A stretch of 64,000 nucleotides of DNA, from NCBI RefSeq assembly GCF_013385985.1, contig NZ_JACAOY010000009.1, positions 1-64,000 on the forward strand, in the 5' to 3' direction. The notes beneath the pieces were generated by a model, which made no database searches, was not told where the DNA came from, and saw nothing but the letters and a program-made list of their open reading frames with translations. This stretch comes from Pseudomonas sp. B6002. GTDB lineage: Bacteria > Pseudomonadota > Gammaproteobacteria > Pseudomonadales > Pseudomonadaceae. Positions 1 through 25,272 of this stretch are shown here, piece after piece; position 1 is the stretch's first letter, and every line of letters begins with the position of its first letter. Made by a program: the position numbers and the translations under genes.

Positions 1-9598
<9,598 letters not shown>

Positions 9599-9653
9599 TT
9601 CTTGGAGTCCGGAGCAATAGGCGGGAAGCACAAAGGCACGTCGTCCCTATAAA

Positions 9654-9678
9654 ACGAACCGGACAGCGAAAAATTAGC
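9654..9678 (-). promoter_or_regulatory. Candidate iron-starvation (PvdS) promoter box of the NRPS gene
   Basis: On the minus strand GCTAATT is followed after 15 bases by CGT, 56-80 bp upstream of the NRPS ATG. This resembles the TAAAT-N16-CGT box used by the sigma factor PvdS at pyoverdine genes, with one mismatch in the -35 half and slightly short spacing. Judged by eye only. Confidence 0.45.
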
Positions 9679-9806
9679 GGGGGATGGGAAGCGCGCAGCG
9701 GCGTGTCATCAAGGGTTACACCAAATTCGGCACGACGAATGAACCCGGGCTAGCATTGACGTAAACCACTTTTTGCAACTACATTTAGTTACACGCAGGG
9801 AACGCT

Positions 9807-10058
9807 GTGTCCAAAAATGAAAAATTGCTCGCCAAACTGCTCAATCCGCAGATGGGATTTACCTGGCAGGAGCTCGCCACGCTGCTGTGCCGGCTGGGCT
9901 ACACACAGATTCAAGGGGCTGGAAGCCGGGTCAAATTCTACAACGGCGACCCCAGTGCAATGATTACGCTGCACAGGCCTCACCCCGGCAACGAAGTGAA
10001 ACACTACATTCGGCGCCAGATCATCGAACAATTGAAATCAGGAGAACTGATTCAGTGA
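9807..10058 (+). CDS. hicA: HicA-family mRNA interferase toxin
   Basis: 83-residue protein. HicA toxins have a double-stranded-RNA-binding-like fold and cleave mRNA using a conserved His; the likely His lies in the segment ITLHRPHPGNEVKHYIRRQI (residues about 52-71). N-terminal QELATLLCRLGYTQIQGAGS is the usual HicA segment that corresponds to GFxxxRQxGSH. The start is GTG at 9807 with a CAGGGAA ribosome-binding site. The stop overlaps the start of the next gene (GTGA), which matches a co-translated toxin-antitoxin pair. It lies between the NRPS start and the MEP gene set, transcribed away from the NRPS. Confidence 0.82.
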   Translation: MSKNEKLLAKLLNPQMGFTWQELATLLCRLGYTQIQGAGSRVKFYNGDPSAMITLHRPHPGNEVKHYIRRQIIEQLKSGELIQ

Positions 10059-10420
10059 ACAACCAACTGAAACACCAAGGCTACATCGGCTCCATCGAAG
10101 CCAGCCTCGAAGACAACTGCCTGTTCGGCAAAGTGCTGTTCATCAAGGCGCTGGTCAGCTACGAGGGCAAGACCGTCGCCGAGCTGGACGCGGCCTTTCG
10201 CGAAGCGGTGGACGACTATCTCGCCACCTGCCAGACCCTCAGGCAAGCACCGGAGAAACCCTGCAAAGGCTCATTCAACGTGCGCGTCGGCCACGACCTG
10301 CATCTGGCAGCAGCCCTGGAGGCAAGCCGCAAGAAAGTGACGCTGAACGATTTGACGCGCCAGGCGCTGAGCGAATTCCTGCTGCACCATCGCAGTGAGT
10401 CAACGCCTGCCGTCGGCTGA
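10055..10420 (+). CDS. hicB: HicB-family antitoxin with C-terminal DNA-binding segment
   Basis: 121 residues from a GTG at 10055 that overlaps the hicA stop; AGGAGA sits just upstream. The N-terminal part (GYIGSIEASLEDNCLFGKVLFIKALVSYEG) is the partial RNase H-like HicB fold that neutralises HicA. The C-terminal part (FNVRVGHDLHLAAALEASRK...LNDLTRQALSEFL) looks like a ribbon-helix-helix motif, used for autorepression in this family. The gene converges on dxr, with 8 bp between the stop codons. Confidence 0.82.
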   Translation: MNNQLKHQGYIGSIEASLEDNCLFGKVLFIKALVSYEGKTVAELDAAFREAVDDYLATCQTLRQAPEKPCKGSFNVRVGHDLHLAAALEASRKKVTLNDLTRQALSEFLLHHRSESTPAVG

Positions 10421-10428
10421 GCGCGGTA

Positions 10429-11610
10429 TCAACCGTTTAAACTGCACACCCTGACCGCCTCGCGTGCCAACCTCCTTGCCTGGTGATCCTGCTCGAAAAT
10501 ATCGCTCAGGCTGGAGAGCGTCTGCAGGTTGATGCACTGTAAGGCGTGATCCACCACACGCGGGATCTGGGTGAACCGAACCCGTCGCCCCAGGAACGCC
10601 TCGACGGCCACTTCATTCGCGGCATTCAACGCCGCACTGGCGCGATTACCTTCGGCGAGCACTTGCAGGGCCAGGCCGAAACAGGGGAAGCGATGGAGGT
10701 CGGGATGCTCGAAGGTCAAGCCGCCAGAACGTGTGAGGTCCAGCGGCGACACTCCGGACTCGATACGTTGCGGATACGCCAGTGCGTGAGCCACTGGCAT
10801 CCGCATATCCGGGTTGCCCAGTTGGGCCAACACGGATTGATCGCGAAACACCACCATGGAGTGCACCACGCTTTGCGGGTGAATCAACGCTTGGATGCGT
10901 TCGGCGGGCAAGTCGAACAGCCAGTGGGCTTCGATGATTTCCAGGCCCTTGTTCATCAGGGTGGCGCAATCCACGGAAATTTTGCGACCCATTGACCAAT
11001 TGGGATGGGCACAGGCCTGGTCGGGGCTCACATCGTCCAGGCTGTCGAGGGGACGCTTCCTGAAAGGTCCACCCGAGGCCGTCAAGATCAGACGATCAAC
11101 GTCCTCCAGCGAACCGTGACAGCCTTGCAGGCACTGAAAAATCGCGTTGTGCTCACTGTCGAGTGGTATCACCGTCGCTCCGCCGCTGGCCACGGTTTCG
11201 ACGAACAAGGCGCCGGCCATGACCAAGGCTTCCTTGTTCGCCAAAAGGATTTTCTTGCCCGACTGCGCAGCACTCAAGGTCGGTAACAACCCCGCCGCCC
11301 CGACGATACCGGCCACCACCGTGTCGACATCCGACGAAGCGGCCACCGCACACAAGGCATCCACACCACACAACACTTCGGTCGGCAGGCCGGCTGCCAG
11401 CAAGTGGGCCTGTAGCTCGATGGCATGCTGCGGCTCACTAACCACAGCGACGGGGGGACGAAATTGCAGGCACTGTCGGTACAACTTGTCGATGTTCCGA
11501 TGAGCAGTAAGCCCTTGCACCATCAATGTCTCGGGGTGACGCGCGACTACATCCAGAACACTGTCGCCGACCGACCCGGTAGAACCGAGAACGAGCAGGC
11601 GTTGCAACAT
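10429..11610 (-). CDS. dxr: 1-deoxy-D-xylulose 5-phosphate reductoisomerase, paralogue with altered phosphate pocket
   Basis: 393 residues. It converts DXP to 2-C-methyl-D-erythritol 4-phosphate with NADPH, the first committed step of the MEP isoprenoid route. NADPH motif GSTGSVG (residues 9-15), ANKEALVM (124-131), metal ligands D151, E153 and E224, substrate residues S179, N220, K221, plus IHPQSVVHS and GNPDMRMP. The motif VDCATLMNKG has Cys215 where E. coli Dxr has Ser222, a phosphate- and fosmidomycin-contacting residue. Start chosen at 11610 (MLQRLLVLGSTG, AAGGA upstream); a longer in-frame start at 11685 has no family support. The N-terminal region resembles beta-proteobacterial Dxr. 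Divergent from dxs-ispH-ispG. Confidence 0.93.
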   Translation of the reverse strand: MLQRLLVLGSTGSVGDSVLDVVARHPETLMVQGLTAHRNIDKLYRQCLQFRPPVAVVSEPQHAIELQAHLLAAGLPTEVLCGVDALCAVAASSDVDTVVAGIVGAAGLLPTLSAAQSGKKILLANKEALVMAGALFVETVASGGATVIPLDSEHNAIFQCLQGCHGSLEDVDRLILTASGGPFRKRPLDSLDDVSPDQACAHPNWSMGRKISVDCATLMNKGLEIIEAHWLFDLPAERIQALIHPQSVVHSMVVFRDQSVLAQLGNPDMRMPVAHALAYPQRIESGVSPLDLTRSGGLTFEHPDLHRFPCFGLALQVLAEGNRASAALNAANEVAVEAFLGRRVRFTQIPRVVDHALQCINLQTLSSLSDIFEQDHQARRLAREAVRVCSLNG

Positions 11611-12181
11611 GATCAAACGTCCTTTGGAGGCGGCAGGTAATTGAAGTAAACGTAGCATCCGCCCACTGTCTGACAAGTTAGCCACTCGACTAACTTGCGA
11701 TAGGCAAGCACACTTTTATTTATATAACAGGCGACCTATAACGCGTTCAAAACTCGCTCATTCCAAATAAAACTATGCACGGACTTGCGCTGACGCCTGT
11801 TCCTTTCTAAAAATAACCTTCACCTCTTGCCTTTTCAGCCCATCTGTTTGGTCTGCAGTATCGTCCAATGGCTAGTCCCAATGAGACTGTACTGTGAACG
11901 CCTATAAAACATCACACGCAAGGTTTACCGAATCGCCGCCAGCAGACGAAAGCACGTGCTTCCACGGCAGCGGGCGTCACTCTTCTGCGCCTCGAAAACC
12001 AAACATAAATCCTGAAAAACGTTCAGCAAAACTAACTGCTGGCGAAGTAGCAGTCATGCGCCCACCCAATAAACTTGCTCTTCACAACATGAAAAACGGC
12101 AACTTTAATGTTTACACGGTCGTTCCTTAGAACTTCGTTTTTTCTAGCGGTGAGCGTCAACACGGCTCGCAGGAGGCAACC
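11611..12181. other. 571-bp divergent intergenic region between dxr and dxs
   Basis: No convincing gene. The stretch is visibly richer in A/T than its flanks and should hold both divergent promoters. It contains a perfect inverted repeat at 11674-11697 and, just before dxs, the strong ribosome-binding site AGGAGG at 12171-12176. An open frame at 11894-12130 has no recognisable family and atypical composition. Confidence 0.6.
11674..11697. promoter_or_regulatory. Perfect 8-bp inverted repeat upstream of dxr (candidate operator)
   Basis: CAAGTTAG, eight spacer bases, CTAACTTG. It lies 64-87 bp upstream of the dxr start in the promoter region shared with dxs. The dyad form suits a dimeric repressor or activator, but the regulator is not identified and no regulator gene adjoins dxr or dxs. 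Confidence 0.45.
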
Positions 12182-14002
12182 ATGTTCGAACTCCTCAATA
12201 CGATTGATAACCCTGCCCGCCTGCGCACTTTGCACCCCGCCGCACTTCGGCCGCTGGCCGACGAACTGAGGGCCTTTATTCTGCACAGTGTCAGTACCAC
12301 GGGCGGCCACCTGTCGGCGAACCTGGGCACGGTCGAACTGGCGATTGCGCTTCACTACACCTTCAATACACCGGATGACCGCATCGTGTGGGATGTCGGG
12401 CATCAGGCCTACGCCCACAAGATTCTCACCGGCCGCCGTGAAGACATGGCCGACATTCGCCAACTCGGTGGTATTTCGGGTTTTCCGCGGCGCAGTGAAT
12501 CCGTTTATGACTGCTTCGGCACCGCGCACTCCAGCACTTCGATATCCGCCGCGTTGGGCATGGCACTCGCCGCACGCAACAAGGGTGAACACCGGCACTG
12601 CATCGCCGTCATCGGCGATGGTGCGCTAAGCGGCGGGATGTCGTTCGAGGCGCTGAACAATGCCGGCGTGTACCGCGACCTGCCATTCCTTGTGGTGCTC
12701 AATGACAATGACATGTCGATCTCCCCTTCCGTGGGCAGGTTGCGTGAACACCTGGGAGCATTGACGGCCAGCAGCGAAGCCCGCCACGAAGCCAACCTCT
12801 TCAAGACCATGGGGTTTGCCTATAGCGGGCCGATCGACGGGCATGACGTGGATGAACTGCAACGGGTACTGCGCCGCCTGAAATTACGTCGAGGGCCGCA
12901 GTTGCTGCACATCATCACGGAAAAAGGTCACGGTTATTCTCCGGCGGCAGCCGACCCGGTGCGCTATCACGGGCCGACAAAGTTCGACCCCACCGAGGGC
13001 CTGCCCCCTGAGCCGCCAGGCAAACCCTCATACACCCAGGTGTTTGCCCGATGGCTGGCCGACGAAGCAGAACACGACCCACGGGTGATCGCCATCACCC
13101 CGGCCATGCGCGAAGGCTCGGGCCTGGGGGCGTTCGAACAACGCTTCGCGCAGCGCTATTTTGATGTCGGCATTGCCGAACAACACGCCCTGACGTTTGC
13201 CGCCGGGCTTGCAACGGAGGGCATGCGACCTGTGGTCGCGATCTACTCCACGTTCCTGCAACGGGGCTACGACCAGTTGATCCATGACATCGCGATCCAG
13301 AACCTGCCCGTCGTATTGGCCATCGACCGTGCCGGGATCGTGGGTGCCGATGGCGCCACGCATATGGGAGCCTTCGATGTGGCCTTTCTGCGCTGTATCC
13401 CCAACCTGACGATCATGGCACCCGCCGATGCCCAGGAATGCCGGCAGATGTTGCACACGGCCCTGCAACAACCCGGGCCGTGCGCCGTGCGCTTCCCGCG
13501 CGGCTGCGCACTGGGGGCGGCACCTTCGCAGGTGTTCAGTGAGCTAGCCATAGGCAAAGGCGAAATCCGCCGCCTCAGCCCCCGTGTGCCAGGGCAACGT
13601 GTGGCCATCCTGGCGTTTGGCTCGATGACGCAACACGCGCTGGAGGCCGCGGACCGCTTCGATGCCACCGTCGCCAATATGCGTTTCATCAAACCGCTGG
13701 ACACCGAGCTGCTTCAAAACCTGGCGCGCAGCCATGACTTGCTGGTGACCGTTGAAGAAGGTTGCATCCTCGGTGGCGCAGGCTCGGCCTGCCTGGAATA
13801 CCTGGCCCGCAGCAACCTGCACCTGCCGGTGCTGCAACTGGGCTTACCTGACCAGTTCATCGAGCACGGTGCGCCTGATCAGTTGTTGCGCCATTACGGT
13901 CTCGACACCAACGGCATCAGCGCGGCCATCAGCCGATTTATCCATGAACACGCGCCGGGCGCGGCCATGCCCGTCATCACACCGCGTCAGGTGAGCGCCT
14001 GA
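12182..14002 (+). CDS. dxs: 1-deoxy-D-xylulose 5-phosphate synthase, paralogue
   Basis: 606 residues, slightly short for Dxs (usually 620-640). A thiamine-diphosphate enzyme that condenses pyruvate and glyceraldehyde 3-phosphate to DXP. Seen: [10 protein letters not shown] (catalytic-site His), [18 protein letters not shown] (ThDP/Mg motif), [17 protein letters not shown] (ThDP-activating Glu) and [18 protein letters not shown]. The N-terminal block ([14 protein letters not shown]...[15 protein letters not shown]) fits beta-proteobacterial Dxs better than the Pseudomonas housekeeping form, which I recall as TGGHFGAGLGVIELTIALHY. First gene of a tight operon: 2 bp to ispH and 12 bp from ispH to ispG. 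Strong AGGAGG ribosome-binding site. Confidence 0.95.
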
Positions 14003-14004
14003 CC

Positions 14005-14934
14005 ATGAACGTAATCATTGCCCAGCCACGGGGGTTCTGCGCCGGTGTCGTGCGTGCCATCGATGCCGTGGAACAAGCCCTGGACCAATTCGGCGCGCCG
14101 GTGTATGTGCGCCATGAAATCGTGCATAACCGCCATGTCGTGCAGACGTTGACGGACAAGGGTGCCACGTTCGTGGAAGAGCTGGACCAGGTGCCCGCCG
14201 GTGCCGTGACCCTTTTCAGCGCCCACGGCGTAACCCGTGACGTGGAACGCGAGGCTCAGCAACGCCAGCTTCAGGTATTCGACGCCACCTGCCCGCTGGT
14301 GTCCAAAGTACACAACCATGGACGCCAGTACGCGGCCAAGGGTTATTCATTGATCTTGATCGGCGAGCCCGGCCACCCTGAAGTCATTGGTATTCTCGGT
14401 CAGGTTGATGCACCGATCACCTTGATCCAGACCGTCAAGCAGGTCAGCGAGCTGCCGTTCGCCGTGGGTGCGCCGTTGGCTTACCTGACTCAGACCACCC
14501 TGAGCGTTGACGACACACGGGCCGTGGTACAGGCGTTGACCCAGCGCTACCCCGGGATTGTCGGGCCCGCCAGCCGCGATATTTGCTACGCGGTGCAGAA
14601 TCGCCAGCAAGCAGTGCGCGACCTGTGTACACAGGTGGAACGGCTGTTGGTGGTCGGCAATGCCAACAGCGCCAACTCGGTGACCCTGTGCGCACTGGCC
14701 AATGACCTCGGCGTACAGAGCTACCTGGTAGCCGACGGCAGTGAAATCGACAGCCAGTGGTTCACGCCCGACATGACCGTGGGCATTACCGCAGGTGCTT
14801 CAACCCCGGAAAGCTCGGTCGAGGACGTCATCGCCGCGCTGGCACGCATAGCCCCGCTGCAGGTCAGGGCCTTGCCCGGGCGCGAGGAACAGGTGCGGTT
14901 TCACCTCCCCGCCGGGTTGATTGCCCGGCAATAG
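14005..14934 (+). CDS. ispH: 4-hydroxy-3-methylbut-2-enyl diphosphate reductase, paralogue
   Basis: 309 residues, typical for IspH. A [4Fe-4S] enzyme that makes IPP and DMAPP in the last MEP step. Cluster ligands C12 (RGFCAGV), C96 (DATCPLV) and C194 ([10 protein letters not shown]) are present, as are substrate-binding H41, H74, H124 and the catalytic Glu126 (GHPEV). Starts 2 bp after the dxs stop, so translation is probably coupled. All key residues are intact, so I expect an active enzyme. Confidence 0.95.
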
Positions 14935-14946
14935 CGCAGAGGCGTC

Positions 14947-16230
14947 ATGAGCATGAACACTTTCCCTGTCCGTCGCACCACCCGCCAGGTCAACGTCGGG
15001 CCGGTTCACCTGGGCAGCGACGCGCCGATCGTGGTGCAGGCCATGACCAATACCGACACCGCCGATGCCCAGGCCACCGCAAGCCAGGTGGAAAGCCTGG
15101 CGCGTGCGGGGGCCGAGCTGGTGCGCATCACGGTCAACAGCCATGAAGCCGCGGCCCAGGTCGCACGCATCCGCGAGCTATTGGACCGGCACAACGTGAA
15201 CGTGCCCCTCGTGGGGGATTTTCACTTCAATGGCCATCGCCTGTTGGCCGCTTACCCCGACTGCGCTCAGGCCCTGGCCAAGTACCGGATCAACCCCGGC
15301 AATGTCGGCAAAGGCGAACGGCGCGATGAACAGTTCTGCCAGATGATCGAGGTTGCCTGTCGCTACGACAAACCGGTGCGCATCGGCGTCAACTGGGGCA
15401 GCCTGGACCCGGACCTGCTGGCCCGCCTGATGGATACGAATGCTGCCCTGCCCGCACCGCTGCCGGCCGACGCGGTGATGCGCGAAGCGCTGGTGGTCTC
15501 GGCCCTGGAAAATGCCGGGCGCGCCATGGAGGTCGGGCTACCGGCAGACCGTATCGTGCTGTCGGCCAAGGTCAGCCATGTGCAGGACTTGATCACCATC
15601 TACCGCCACCTGGCCGCTCGGTGCGACTTCCCTTTGCACCTGGGCTTGACCGAAGCAGGCATGGGCACCAAGGGCATCGTCGCCTCCACCGCAGCCCTGG
15701 CCGTGCTGTTGCAGGAAGGCATCGGCGACACCCTGCGCATGTCCCTGACCCCGGAGCCGGGCGGCACGCGCGCTCGTGAAGTCCAGGTGGCCCAACAACT
15801 GCTGCAAACCATGGGCCTGCGCGCCTTCAGCCCACAAGTGGTGGCCTGCCCCGGCTGCGGGCGTACCACCAGTGTGTTCTTCCAGGAACTGGCGCAGCGG
15901 ATCGAGGCGTTCCTGAGCGCGCAAACGCCGGTATGGCGCAGCCGCTACCCAGGCGTCGAGCGGTTGCATGTGGCGGTCATGGGCTGCGTGGTGAACGGCC
16001 CGGGGGAAAGCCGGTTGGCGGACATCGGTATCTCACTGCCCGGCGCCGGTGAACACCCTTCGGCACCGGTCTACATGGATGGCGAACGGGTGATGACACT
16101 CAAGGGCGCCACCATCGCCGAAGACTTTATCCGCTTGCTTGAGGCCTATGTCGCAGCGCGTTATGGCCATGATGAACAGGCCCTGCACGTCCTGCTTTCA
16201 GCCCAGGCGCCGATAGCCCAGCAACGCTGA
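14947..16230 (+). CDS. ispG: 4-hydroxy-3-methylbut-2-en-1-yl diphosphate synthase, long beta-proteobacterial type, paralogue
   Basis: 427 residues. Converts MEcPP to HMBPP with a [4Fe-4S] cluster. Ligands C301 and C304 (CPGCGRTT) and C347 ([10 protein letters not shown]) are visible. The length and the blocks [35 protein letters not shown] and GVNWGSLD are those of the long alpha/beta-proteobacterial form; the Pseudomonas and E. coli housekeeping IspG is about 370 residues. Last gene of the dxs-ispH-ispG operon. Its 3' end overlaps the 3' end of the convergent MFS gene by 33 bp. Confidence 0.95.
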
Positions 16231-17370
16231 ACCAAAAACCACTGCACCAGCCCCAAGTGCCACCCAGAACCCACTGGGGGCGCCAAAATGGTCGATCATC
16301 CACCCGGAGCTGGCAGCGCCGATGGCCACGCCGATGCTCAGGCCGGTGATCAGCCAGGTCATGCCTTCGGTGAGGCGGCTCGGGGGCACCACCCGCTCCA
16401 CCAACGCCATGGACACGATCAGGGTCGGGGCAAAGAACAACCCGGAGATAAACACCGCCACCGCCAGCCCCGGGATGTTGGTTACCAGCAGCAAGGGCAA
16501 GGTAGTCAACGCCGTGGCCACGCCGCACAGCAGGAACTGGCGCGGCAGCGGTGCCTTGAGCTTGAGGGTGCCGAACGCCAGGCCAGCCAGGCAGGAACCG
16601 ATGGCGTACACCGACAACACGATGCTGGCAGCCGCAGGCTGGCCCTGGTGCTGGGCGAACGCCACGCTGACCACATCCACCACGCCGACGATCACGCCCA
16701 TGGCCAGCAGCAGGATCATCAGGATGAGCACCGAGGGCGAAGCAATCAGCGAGCCGCCGTGGTGCGCGTGGTGTTCGTGCACCGCAGGCTCGGTGTCACG
16801 TTGCAGCACAAAGGTAGTCACCCCGGCCGCCAGCAGCAGCGCCGCCACCAGCGGCCCGGCTTCGGGGAACAGCACCACACTCAGGCCCACCGAGATCGGC
16901 GGGCCGATGATGAAACACACCTCATCGAGCACCGATTCCAGGGCAAAGGCAGTCTGCAACTTGGGTTGGCCCCGGTACAACTCGGTCCAGCGCGCCCGCA
17001 CCATGGCCGACATATTCGGCATGCAACCGGCCAGCGCGGCAAACACGAAGAGGGTCCAACTGGGCGCCTGCAATCGCGTGCACAGCAACAGCATCAGCAA
17101 CGCCCCGCCGCCGATCAATGCTGCAATCGGTAGCACCCGGCCCTGGCTGTAGCGATCCACCAGCCGCGACACCTGCGGCGCACAAAACGCCGTGGCCAGG
17201 GCAAATACGGCCGCCACCGAGCCCGCCAGGCCATAGCCACCATGCACCTGCGACAGCATGGTGATCAGGCCGATACCGGTCATGGACACCGGCATGCGCG
17301 CCAGCATGCCGGCCAACACAAATGCACGCGCGCCAGGCACCTGGAACAATTCGGTGTAGGGGTTTGCCAT
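16198..17370 (-). CDS. Major facilitator superfamily transporter, probable drug exporter
   Basis: 390 residues, inner-membrane protein with about twelve hydrophobic segments and the charged loops of MFS exporters. A His-rich cytoplasmic stretch (HEHHAHHGG) lies in the central loop. Start chosen at 17370 (MANPYTELF) with GAGG upstream; an ATG at 17385 is also in frame. Divergent from a TetR-family gene with two perfect inverted repeats between them, the usual arrangement for a repressor-controlled exporter. The substrate is unknown. The 3' end overlaps ispG by 33 bp. Confidence 0.85.
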
Positions 17371-22633: not shown

Positions 22634-23677
22634 CTACTCCGCCGTCCGCTCTTTACCGCCATGGGGCAGTTGGCCCACCGGGCATTCGGCGACACCGACG
22701 GTGCTGCGGGTGATTTTCTCGACATTCTCCTGGGCCTTTTGCGCGTCCAACACCCAAGTGCGGTAGAACTCGAACGGGCAGTCCGCCACGCCCTTGTCGC
22801 CATCGCCCGAGGCGTGCATGCCGGTATAACCCCGGTGCAGCAACTTGAACAGGTGGTTCTGCGACTGGTCATTGGCCCGCGCATCGCGGATCTGAGACAC
22901 CGACAGTTGCGCGTACTGGATGCCCATCTCCTCCTCGCCGCATTCGCCCAGGGTGCGCCCGTCAAAACCGATGATCGCCGAGTGTCCGAAGTACGAATAC
23001 ACCCCATCGAACCCCGCCGCGTTCGCCACCGCCACATAGCAGTTATTGGCCCAGGCCATGCTCTTGGACATCTGCACCTGCTGCTCCTTGGCCGGGTACA
23101 TATAGCCCTGGCAACGCACGATCAACTCAGCGCCCTTCATCGCGCAATCGCGCCAGATCTCCGGGTAGTTGCCGTCGTCGCAAATGATCAGGCTGATCTT
23201 CATGCCTTTGGGCCCGTCGCACACATAGGTGCGATCGCCCGGATACCAGCCTTCGATGGGGCACCAGGGAATGCATTTGCGATAGCGCTGCACGATTTCG
23301 CCGAGATGGTTGATCAGCACCAGCGTGTTGTACGGCGCCTTGTGCGGGTGCTCTTCGTGGCGCTCACCGGTCAGGGAAAACACGCCCCAGGTGTTGGCCT
23401 GGCGACAGGCCGCCGAGAAAATCGCGGTCTCTTCGCCGGGAATGCTTGCGGCGGTGGCCATCATTTCATCGTGGTCGTACATGATCCCCATGGTGCTGTA
23501 CTCGGGGAACACCACCAGGTCCATGCCGGGCAGGCCCTGCTTCATGCCGACAATGATCTCGGCAATCTTCTTCGCGTTGTCGATGACATCGGCCTTGCTG
23601 TGCAGGCGCGGCATCTTGTAGTTCACCACCGCGACACCCACGGTGTCCGGGCTGCTGGAAATGTCGCCATGACGCAT
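22634..23677 (-). CDS. amiE: Aliphatic amidase
   Basis: 347 residues, the length of P. aeruginosa AmiE (346) and highly similar to it throughout. Nitrilase-superfamily enzyme that hydrolyses short aliphatic amides (acetamide, propionamide) to the acid and ammonia in the cytoplasm. The catalytic triad is E59 (VVFPEYS), K134 (YRKCIPWCP) and C166 ([10 protein letters not shown]). AGGAG lies 7 bp before the start. Third gene of fmdA-fmdB-amiE-amiB; the P. aeruginosa regulators AmiC and AmiR are not here. Confidence 0.95.
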
Positions 23678-23692
23678 AACAACGCTCCTGTT

Positions 23693-24040
23693 CTAGTGGC
23701 TGATCATCCACGGCCGTGGGCCGGTTTTGGTCTTGAGCCCCAAGGGGTTGGCCTTGCTCGGCAGCACCTTTTTGCTGGTGCCGCAGCAACTGCAACCGGC
23801 CGGGTGCTTGCGGCTTTCCTGGTACTCGCCGACGGTTTGCGGCGCATGGCGGCTGCGTTCGTTGCCCTCGATGGCCTTGCGCTGGTTGCCCGACAGCGTT
23901 TGCAACGCGGGCGCGCAAATCAGCAGTTGCCCGCCCGGCCCGTCGCAATAGGGGCACTGGCTCGGTTCGTTGCGCTGGGCGATGGGCCGCAACATCGTGA
24001 AGGTGCCGCACGCCGCACAGGCGTATTCGTAGGTCGGCAT
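23693..24040 (-). CDS. fmdB: FmdB-family zinc-ribbon protein
   Basis: 115 residues starting MPTYEYACAACG. The N-terminal zinc ribbon has two CxxC pairs (CAAC near residue 8; CPYC near 29) and a further CSCC pair sits near the C-terminus. FmdB proteins accompany formamidases and are proposed to be regulatory or assembly factors, unproven. It lies between fmdA (2 bp) and amiE (15 bp). Start chosen at 24040 because the ribbon begins there. Confidence 0.88.
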   Translation of the reverse strand: MPTYEYACAACGTFTMLRPIAQRNEPSQCPYCDGPGGQLLICAPALQTLSGNQRKAIEGNERSRHAPQTVGEYQESRKHPAGCSCCGTSKKVLPSKANPLGLKTKTGPRPWMISH

Positions 24041-24042
24041 GG

Positions 24043-25272
24043 CTACAGGTCCGGGGCGATGGGCAGGTCGATGCTGCCATCGAGAAACTTGGTCGGCCCG
24101 TTGGCGTTGGGGTTGATGTCGAACTCGAAGATTTCCGTGGGCAACCACAAGGTCGCGCAGGCATTCGGGATGTCCACCACGCCGCTGATATGCCCTTGTA
24201 CCGGCGCCGAGCCGAGCAGCGCATAGCCCTGGGCCGGCGAGTAGCCGAACTTGGTCAGGTAGTTGATCGCGTTCAGGCACGCCTGGCGGTAGGCAACGTT
24301 GACGTCCAGGTAATGCTGCTGGCCCTGCTCGTCCACCGAGATGCCTTCGAAGATCAGGTAGTTCTTGTAGTTCGGGGTGATCGGGCTCGGCTTGAACACC
24401 GGGTTCTTGATCCCGTACTTGGCCATGCCACCCTTGATCAGCTCGACTTTCATATGCACCCAGCCGGCCATCTCGATGGCGCCGCAAAAGGTGATTTCGC
24501 CGTCGCCCTGGCTGAAGTGCAAGTCACCCACCGACAGCCCGGCACCCTTGACGTAGACCGGGAAAAAGATCTTCGAACCCCGGGACAAATCCTTGATGTC
24601 GCAGTTACCACCGTGCTCACGGGGCGGCACGGTACGCGCGCCGGTGGCAGCCGCATCGTCGCGTGCCTGGCCCTGCATCTTGCCCATGTGCGCCGTGGCC
24701 GCCAGGGGCGCGTTGGCCAGCGGCGGAACGCGGGTGGGGTTGGTGTCGATCAGCTCCTGTTCGCGACGGTTCCAGTCGGCGAGCATGACCGGGTCGGGCA
24801 GGCAGCCGATCAAGCCGGGGTGGATGAGGCCAGCAAAGTTCACGCCCGGAATGTGCCGGGAGCTGGTGAACATGCCCTTGAAATCCCAGATGGCTTTTTG
24901 GGCGCTGGGGAAGTGATCGGTCAGAAAGCCGCCACCGTTCTGGCGTGAGAAGAAACCGTTGAACCCCCACTGGGAATCGGCCTTGGCGCCGATGTCGAGC
25001 AGGTCCACCACGAGCAAATCACCCGGCTCGGCGCCGTGCACGCCTACGGGGCCCGACAGGTAGTGCACGGTGGACAAATCCACGTCGCGCACGTCGCTGG
25101 CGTCGTCGTTGTTCTTGATGGCGCCGGCGGTCCAGTCGTAGGTTTCAAGGATGAAGTCATCGCCCGGCTTGACCCAGCAGGCCATCGGAATATCCGGGTG
25201 CCAGCGGTTGTGGATCTGCTCGTTTTCGGTGACAGGCTGGTTGAGGTCGACTTTGATCAGCGTTTCGGTCAT
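24043..25272 (-). CDS. fmdA: Formamidase (FmdA/AmdA family)
   Basis: 409 residues, full length. Hydrolyses formamide (some members acetamide) to formate and ammonia. The FmdA_AmdA family pattern is clear: NRWHPDIPMACWVKPGDDF near the start, DLSTVHYLSGPVGVHGAEPGDLLVVDLLDIG, PPREHGGNCDIKDLSRGS, and GDLHFSQGDGEITFCGAIEM. First gene of the amide operon, with AGGAG before the ATG. A motif shared with the urtA promoter lies 67-84 bp upstream, which suggests common control with urea uptake. Confidence 0.95.
   Translation of the reverse strand: MTETLIKVDLNQPVTENEQIHNRWHPDIPMACWVKPGDDFILETYDWTAGAIKNNDDASDVRDVDLSTVHYLSGPVGVHGAEPGDLLVVDLLDIGAKADSQWGFNGFFSRQNGGGFLTDHFPSAQKAIWDFKGMFTSSRHIPGVNFAGLIHPGLIGCLPDPVMLADWNRREQELIDTNPTRVPPLANAPLAATAHMGKMQGQARDDAAATGARTVPPREHGGNCDIKDLSRGSKIFFPVYVKGAGLSVGDLHFSQGDGEITFCGAIEMAGWVHMKVELIKGGMAKYGIKNPVFKPSPITPNYKNYLIFEGISVDEQGQQHYLDVNVAYRQACLNAINYLTKFGYSPAQGYALLGSAPVQGHISGVVDIPNACATLWLPTEIFEFDINPNANGPTKFLDGSIDLPIAPDL

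Follow-up and report, generated by a model that had tools for sequence, protein, structure and literature searches.

Terpene clusters bearing MEP pathway precursor genes are already published. In the sodorifen cluster of Serratia plymuthica (sodABCD), an isomerase and Dxs are clustered with the terpene genes; to our knowledge, it contains no dxr, ispG or ispH. In Pseudomonas, non-canonical terpene clusters of the sodorifen, chlororaphen and grimophan type resemble the locus described here: the figure 2 legend of PMC13022886 keys IDI, DXR, DXS, IspH and IspG among 12 compared terpene clusters.

We analysed a window of 64,000 nucleotides from Pseudomonas sp. B6002 (assembly GCF_013385985.1, contig NZ_JACAOY010000009.1, positions 1 to 64,000). 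It carries dxr, dxs, ispH and ispG, all four of which are among the genes keyed in that legend. Precursor genes are thus clustered as in the Serratia plymuthica system, but the terpene genes are missing. Compared with the Pseudomonas clusters, the window lacks idi, methyltransferase and terpene synthase, leaving the four precursor genes alone. The sole PF19086 synthase of the genome lies on another contig, unlike the linked synthases of the Pseudomonas clusters. With the linked synthase missing, the set is classed as a derived remnant or module rather than a complete cluster member. Clusters with precursor genes being known, it is the set without a linked synthase that differs here.

A second set of four MEP pathway genes

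The dxr2 gene (10429–11610, minus strand) is divergent from dxs2 (12182–14002), ispH2 (14005–14934) and ispG2 (14947–16230) on the plus strand, and none of the four contains an internal stop. Gaps of 2 bp separate dxs2 from ispH2 and 12 bp ispH2 from ispG2, and dxs2 has an AGGAGG-like ribosome-binding site. All four proteins scored above the curated cut-offs of NCBIfam equivalog models: Dxr2 with 493 bits against TIGR00243 (cut-off 315.7), Dxs2 with 757 bits against TIGR00204 (466), IspH2 with 308 bits against TIGR00216 (188) and IspG2 with 392 bits against TIGR00612 (280). For dxr2, the ATG at 11610 (393 aa) is preferred as start over the GTG at 11685. IspH2 (HMBPP reductase, 309 aa) has its three cysteine motifs, and IspG2 (HMBPP synthase, 427 aa) is assigned by model and tree to the betaproteobacterial long type. 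Expected active-site motifs were kept in all four proteins.

An earlier note, made from the sequence alone, had described a dxr gene divergent from a tight dxs-ispH-ispG operon and no adjoining prenyltransferase or terpene synthase, and both descriptions hold for the window. Neither of these enzymes, nor ispD, ispE or ispF, was found among the ORFs identified beside the set. No idi occurs among the set ORFs, and tblastn with the idi of a related locus (L115) gave no match above 45 bits in window 1–32000; the five syntenic relatives (L106–L110) also gave none. A tblastn search of the same range with the L111 methyltransferase likewise gave no match above 45 bits for a SodC-type (sodorifen-type) methyltransferase.

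To the left, a large NRPS gene (2–9631, minus strand) runs off the window edge. Between it and dxr2 lie a HicA-like gene without a model match (about 9809–10058, plus) and a HicB gene (10055–10420, plus; PF05534). NRPS-like ORFs of the same group stand left of the set in L106–L110, L115 and L116, and ORFs related to the HicA-like and HicB genes occupy the same place in L106–L109. Genes for an aliphatic amidase and the formamidase FmdA lie close together further along the window (22634–25272, minus).

The genome of this strain (G000; 6.68 Mb, 51 contigs) contains one further copy of each gene, on four contigs other than that of the window: dxs on C30 (two pieces, 54% and 64% identity), dxr on C23 (58%), ispH on C34 (50%) and ispG on C3 (40%). 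Weaker Dxs matches (28–33%) look like other transketolase-kind enzymes. Because these copies exist on other contigs, the window set is accessory and not the sole copy in the genome. This agrees with the proposal in the earlier note of a second set beside housekeeping paralogues (40–64% identity). That note would have given the idea up had the genome held no other dxr, dxs, ispG or ispH; on checking, all four were present. Its expectation that the middle MEP steps come from outside the set was likewise supported.

Pairwise dN/dS of the set genes against the five syntenic relatives was 0.09–0.17, with dS often near 1, and that of flanking genes was 0.03–0.08 (L110 MFS excluded). The set genes have been under past constraint, somewhat weaker than that on the flanks, and much of the low dN/dS signal may predate synthase loss.

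Terpene-cluster relatives, the synthase slot and the leader

When genome contigs were searched with IspG2, at least 578 relatives were found. Among the best 80 of these, only two have the other set genes adjoining (Pseudomonas kairouanensis, L014, and P. viridiflava isolate p4.G3, L015), and the others are mostly beta- and alphaproteobacterial IspG (62–73%). In a tree of those loci with the strain's own housekeeping ispG, 15 IspG2 sequences formed one clade (support 1.0) adjoining a Paludibacterium MAG (L020, 0.989), amid mostly betaproteobacterial sequences. This placement indicates that ispG2 is foreign to Pseudomonas by descent. A plasmid origin was also considered and rejected: of the 76 PLSDB records that match IspG2, not one reaches 80%. 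Counted in sampled whole genomes at E up to 1e-120, ispG2 occurs in 13/399 genomes of the genus sample and in 9/398 of the family sample, where every carrier is a Pseudomonas; four carriers are common to both, giving 18 distinct ones.

Relatives were inspected as 20-kb stretches around ispG2, with crude gene calls and some wrong ORF bounds (for example L113 11590–13971). Within these stretches dxs2, ispH2, ispG2 and mostly dxr2 recur together. In many of the loci L106–L116 the set stands with idi (NUDIX), a PF00348 prenyl synthase, PF19086 synthases, methyltransferases and Rieske oxygenases, and L210–L213 show similar terpene-gene company. The idi, dxs, methyltransferase and terpene synthase of L111, L210, L211 and L213 are in line with the clusters as keyed in PMC13022886. 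As far as ORF labels go, ispD, ispE and ispF are not present in the relatives' stretches. The shared company implies that the pattern of first two plus last two steps, with or without idi, is general for such clusters rather than peculiar to the window. The remark in the earlier note that no prenyltransferase or terpene synthase adjoins is correct for the window, but the note missed the terpene clusters that surround the set in relatives.

The layout of the window recurs in a group of six genomes, namely dxr2, a slot, dxs2, ispH2 and ispG2, followed by MFS and MATE genes: G000 itself, G306, G352, G234, G067 and G140. Across them the flanking MFS/MATE proteins are 94–96% alike (one short MATE piece 85%) and the set proteins 76–89%. 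The slot is filled by a full-length PF19086 synthase in G306 and G352, neither of which has another such synthase. The G140 synthase lacks 48 residues ahead of the Asp-rich motif, that of G234 has shrunk to a remnant of 145 aa, and in G067 and the window there is no synthase; all four of these genomes have another PF19086 synthase elsewhere. A defective slot thus goes with a synthase elsewhere in 4/4 genomes against 0/2 with an intact slot (Fisher 0.067, small numbers, kinship uncorrected). The truncated G234 locus falls inside the synthase-bearing group in the set-gene tree, so its loss, at least, was an event distinct from whatever emptied or left empty the slots of G067 and the window.

In the window the empty slot is delimited by an ORF with a GTG AAC GCC start plus 79 codons (11894–12133, plus strand) and by negative alignments. 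GTG AAC GCC at 11894 stands where L107 and L110 start their synthase (ATG AAC GCA/GCC, reading MNA), and dxs2 starts 288 nt 3' of this GTG. No synthase remnant was detected in 11873–12160 by tblastn with linked synthases, and local alignment scores over this interval lay within the range of 200 shuffles for all four synthases tried. Loss of the synthase from the window slot is the simpler reading; a slot that never held one stays the alternative because the synthase sits elsewhere in other cluster layouts.

Upstream of the slot lies a leader shared with the terpene clusters (11845–11872, plus strand; core GGTCTGCAGTATCGTCCA at 11850–11867), recognised by regular expression, position and conservation. 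Its form is TGGTCNGCAGTANCGTCCA, found at 13 sites 46–53 nt 5' of the first cluster gene (synthase, idi or dxs2). The regular expression returned 11 sites in 10/18 loci scanned, each before and on the same strand as a cluster gene. The L211 leader has one change, L115 and L116 carry a diverged form, the leader is unclear in L212 and L213, and a cluster is lacking in L117 and L209. A weight matrix built from six syntenic leaders placed its best match 51–53 nt before idi in 6/10 other cluster loci. The window leader is intact, with GTG AAC GCC beginning 49 nt from its start. Allowing three mismatches, a search of the window returned one match, which was exact; 0.64 are expected by chance at such laxity, so the case for the leader rests on position and conservation.

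The leader carries an imperfect inverted repeat, CTGG...CCAG or TTGG...CCAA. Folding of the corresponding RNA gave a weak hairpin (RNAalifold −2.7 against a shuffled mean of −0.4, with 7/200 column shuffles reaching −2.7), and no hairpin was common to 14 single folds. Rfam had no match over threshold in window 9600–16600, and a simple scan of 11500–12300 found no sigma-70-like site. L113 has the leader twice (12882–12909 and 16300–16327, minus), where it also precedes a second ORF, of 265 aa. The first residues of this ORF resemble those of idi; judged by a motif, it is presumably a cis-prenyltransferase.

The window set shares both its precursor-gene lineage and its leader with the synthase-bearing clusters, and its origin in a terpene cluster is well supported.

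Terpene synthases in carriers and the unlinked cyclase pair

Among the 399 genomes of the genus, a PF19086 synthase is present in 12/13 with ispG2 and in 41/386 without it (Fisher 1e-10, kinship uncorrected), where all candidates were scored in the 13 carriers and 41/386 may be a lower bound since at most seven candidates per genome were scored in the genus search. A class I terpene synthase occurs in 16/18 distinct carriers, within 20 kb of ispG2 in 13 of the 16. The two carriers without any synthase have a fragment of ispG2 (G186, query residues 126–416) and an ispG2 with two stops (G643), and neither shows another set or cluster gene within its 20-kb stretch. Damage to the set also occurs despite a linked synthase: ispG2 is frameshifted in G645, ispH2 is broken and dxr2 partial in G654, and dxr2 is partial in G697. 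The most often partial member is dxr2, recovered as residues 1–63 in L210, 1–162 in L211 and 1–142 in L213, with dxs2 whole in these loci. A linked terpene synthase of G037 (L114, G037:C35:159160–159741) has an internal TGA.

The sole PF19086 gene of the window's genome is on contig C45, where it encodes a class I synthase of 356 aa (81.7 bits, cut-off 23.7) in a divergent pair with a class II squalene-hopene-cyclase-like (SHC-like) cyclase (L121:7515–10299, equal to G000:C45 about 77514–80298). The class I protein is 24–28% identical to the linked synthases and has the motifs DDEICDE (Asp-rich) and NDLFSFPKD (NSE, the last residue being D and not E). Its class II partner, of 511 aa, is over the cut-offs of PF13243 and PF13249. 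The best solved match of the latter is 7xq4 (E 9e-60), which we take to be SsDMS. At the DxDD motif the C45 protein reads DIDS, keeping the middle Asp, two relatives read DVDC and 7xq4 reads DVDD. SsDMS and CavC are bacterial class II drimenyl diphosphate synthases, and the cav cluster, as given in PMC11035983, also contains a class I cyclase, like the C45 pair. In contrast to the drimenyl diphosphate synthases, no Nudix hydrolase or P450 is among the labelled neighbours of the pair. No report of a divergent pair of class I and DIDS class II enzymes was found in the literature searched. The genome contains two PF00348 genes, one beside the housekeeping dxs, which makes farnesyl diphosphate the likelier substrate of the pair than a C20 one.

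G067, G234, G037 and G395 have the same pair at the corresponding location, with rlmM, MATE and further neighbours in common. The class I gene of the pair (at least 58%) occurs in 5/399 genomes, four of which have ispG2 (Fisher 3e-6), and G101 has a 36% relative. The pair is present without ispG2 in G395, so it does not need the set, and G037 has it in addition to linked synthases. Three carriers (G000, G067 and G234) lack a linked synthase but have an unlinked one, and all three contain the pair. In the 399-genome sample this amounts to 3/3 against 1/9 of the other synthase-bearing carriers (Fisher 0.018, small numbers, kinship uncorrected). No leader was found at the C45 pair, leaving common control with the set unsupported; the top matrix score (15.3) lay inside the rlmM gene and matched that of the weakest site accepted elsewhere (L111, 14.4), which means that the matrix alone is not decisive.

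Possible roles of the set

We consider it probable that the set is the precursor arm of a terpene cluster whose own synthase is gone, and that it now feeds the unlinked C45 cyclase pair via farnesyl diphosphate. Dxs2 and Dxr2 would increase the flow into the MEP pathway and IspG2 and IspH2 the flow through its last two, iron-sulfur steps, with the steps in between left to the housekeeping IspD, IspE and IspF. The cluster's synthase, which stands between dxr2 and dxs2 in syntenic relatives, would have gone while the leader before it remained, and the arm would probably be kept as a feeder of the class I/class II pair. We infer this flux role; service in trans to the C45 cyclases is a good but unproved hypothesis, drawn from the distribution of the genes among genomes. 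Entry by way of Dxs and the IspG step are known points of control. In E. coli, stronger expression of upstream genes makes MEcPP leak out, and overexpressing ispG cuts the leak and lifts product (PMC3487848). A set covering the two entry steps and the two final ones would fit such control. According to PMC13022886, the grimophan cluster gave a similar titre in E. coli without its idi and dxs, which counts against a large effect of the set.

Alternatively, the set could be the leftover of a terpene cluster that recently lost its synthase, with no present client and heading to decay. The empty slot is compatible with this, as are the absence of the leader at the C45 pair and of a sigma-70-like site by simple scan of 11500–12300; both synthase-free carriers have a broken ispG2, so decay follows loss. 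The window set nevertheless retains four open genes with motifs kept and low dN/dS (0.09–0.17), G067 and G234 also keep four open genes without a working linked synthase, and all three genomes hold the unlinked pair. A leftover without a client appears unlikely.

Two of the four set enzymes are iron-sulfur enzymes, and the second ispG is of foreign lineage and the left neighbour an NRPS gene. These features would suit a back-up set that takes over four MEP steps when an inhibitor, iron limitation or oxidative stress strikes, a role the earlier note had raised. Terpene synthases are, however, far commoner in carriers than in other genomes, relatives have the set inside terpene clusters with a common leader, and no stress gene lies within the set. 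Nothing found points to the replacement of vulnerable steps, and we give this explanation very little credence. The presence of precursor steps only in the window could also suggest that the set raises isoprenoids or DXP-derived cofactors in general (quinones, undecaprenyl lipid, thiamine, pyridoxal) and has no client of its own. For DXP cofactors, though, IspG2 and IspH2 would have nothing to do, and the set is rare (13/399) and goes with terpene synthases; a boost of this kind is highly improbable.

Terpene clusters are usually recognised by their synthase, and a precursor module lacking one would be missed or, as happened here, taken for a stress back-up. Should service in trans prove true, the module points to its client enzymes, here the unlinked cyclase pair, and is a natural example of a boost confined to the two entry and two final MEP steps. 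We tentatively raise a rule that the MEP booster of Pseudomonas is a separable module, marked by the leader across clusters that otherwise differ, which may lose its linked synthase and serve in trans and would survive only where a client synthase exists anywhere in the genome, decaying otherwise.
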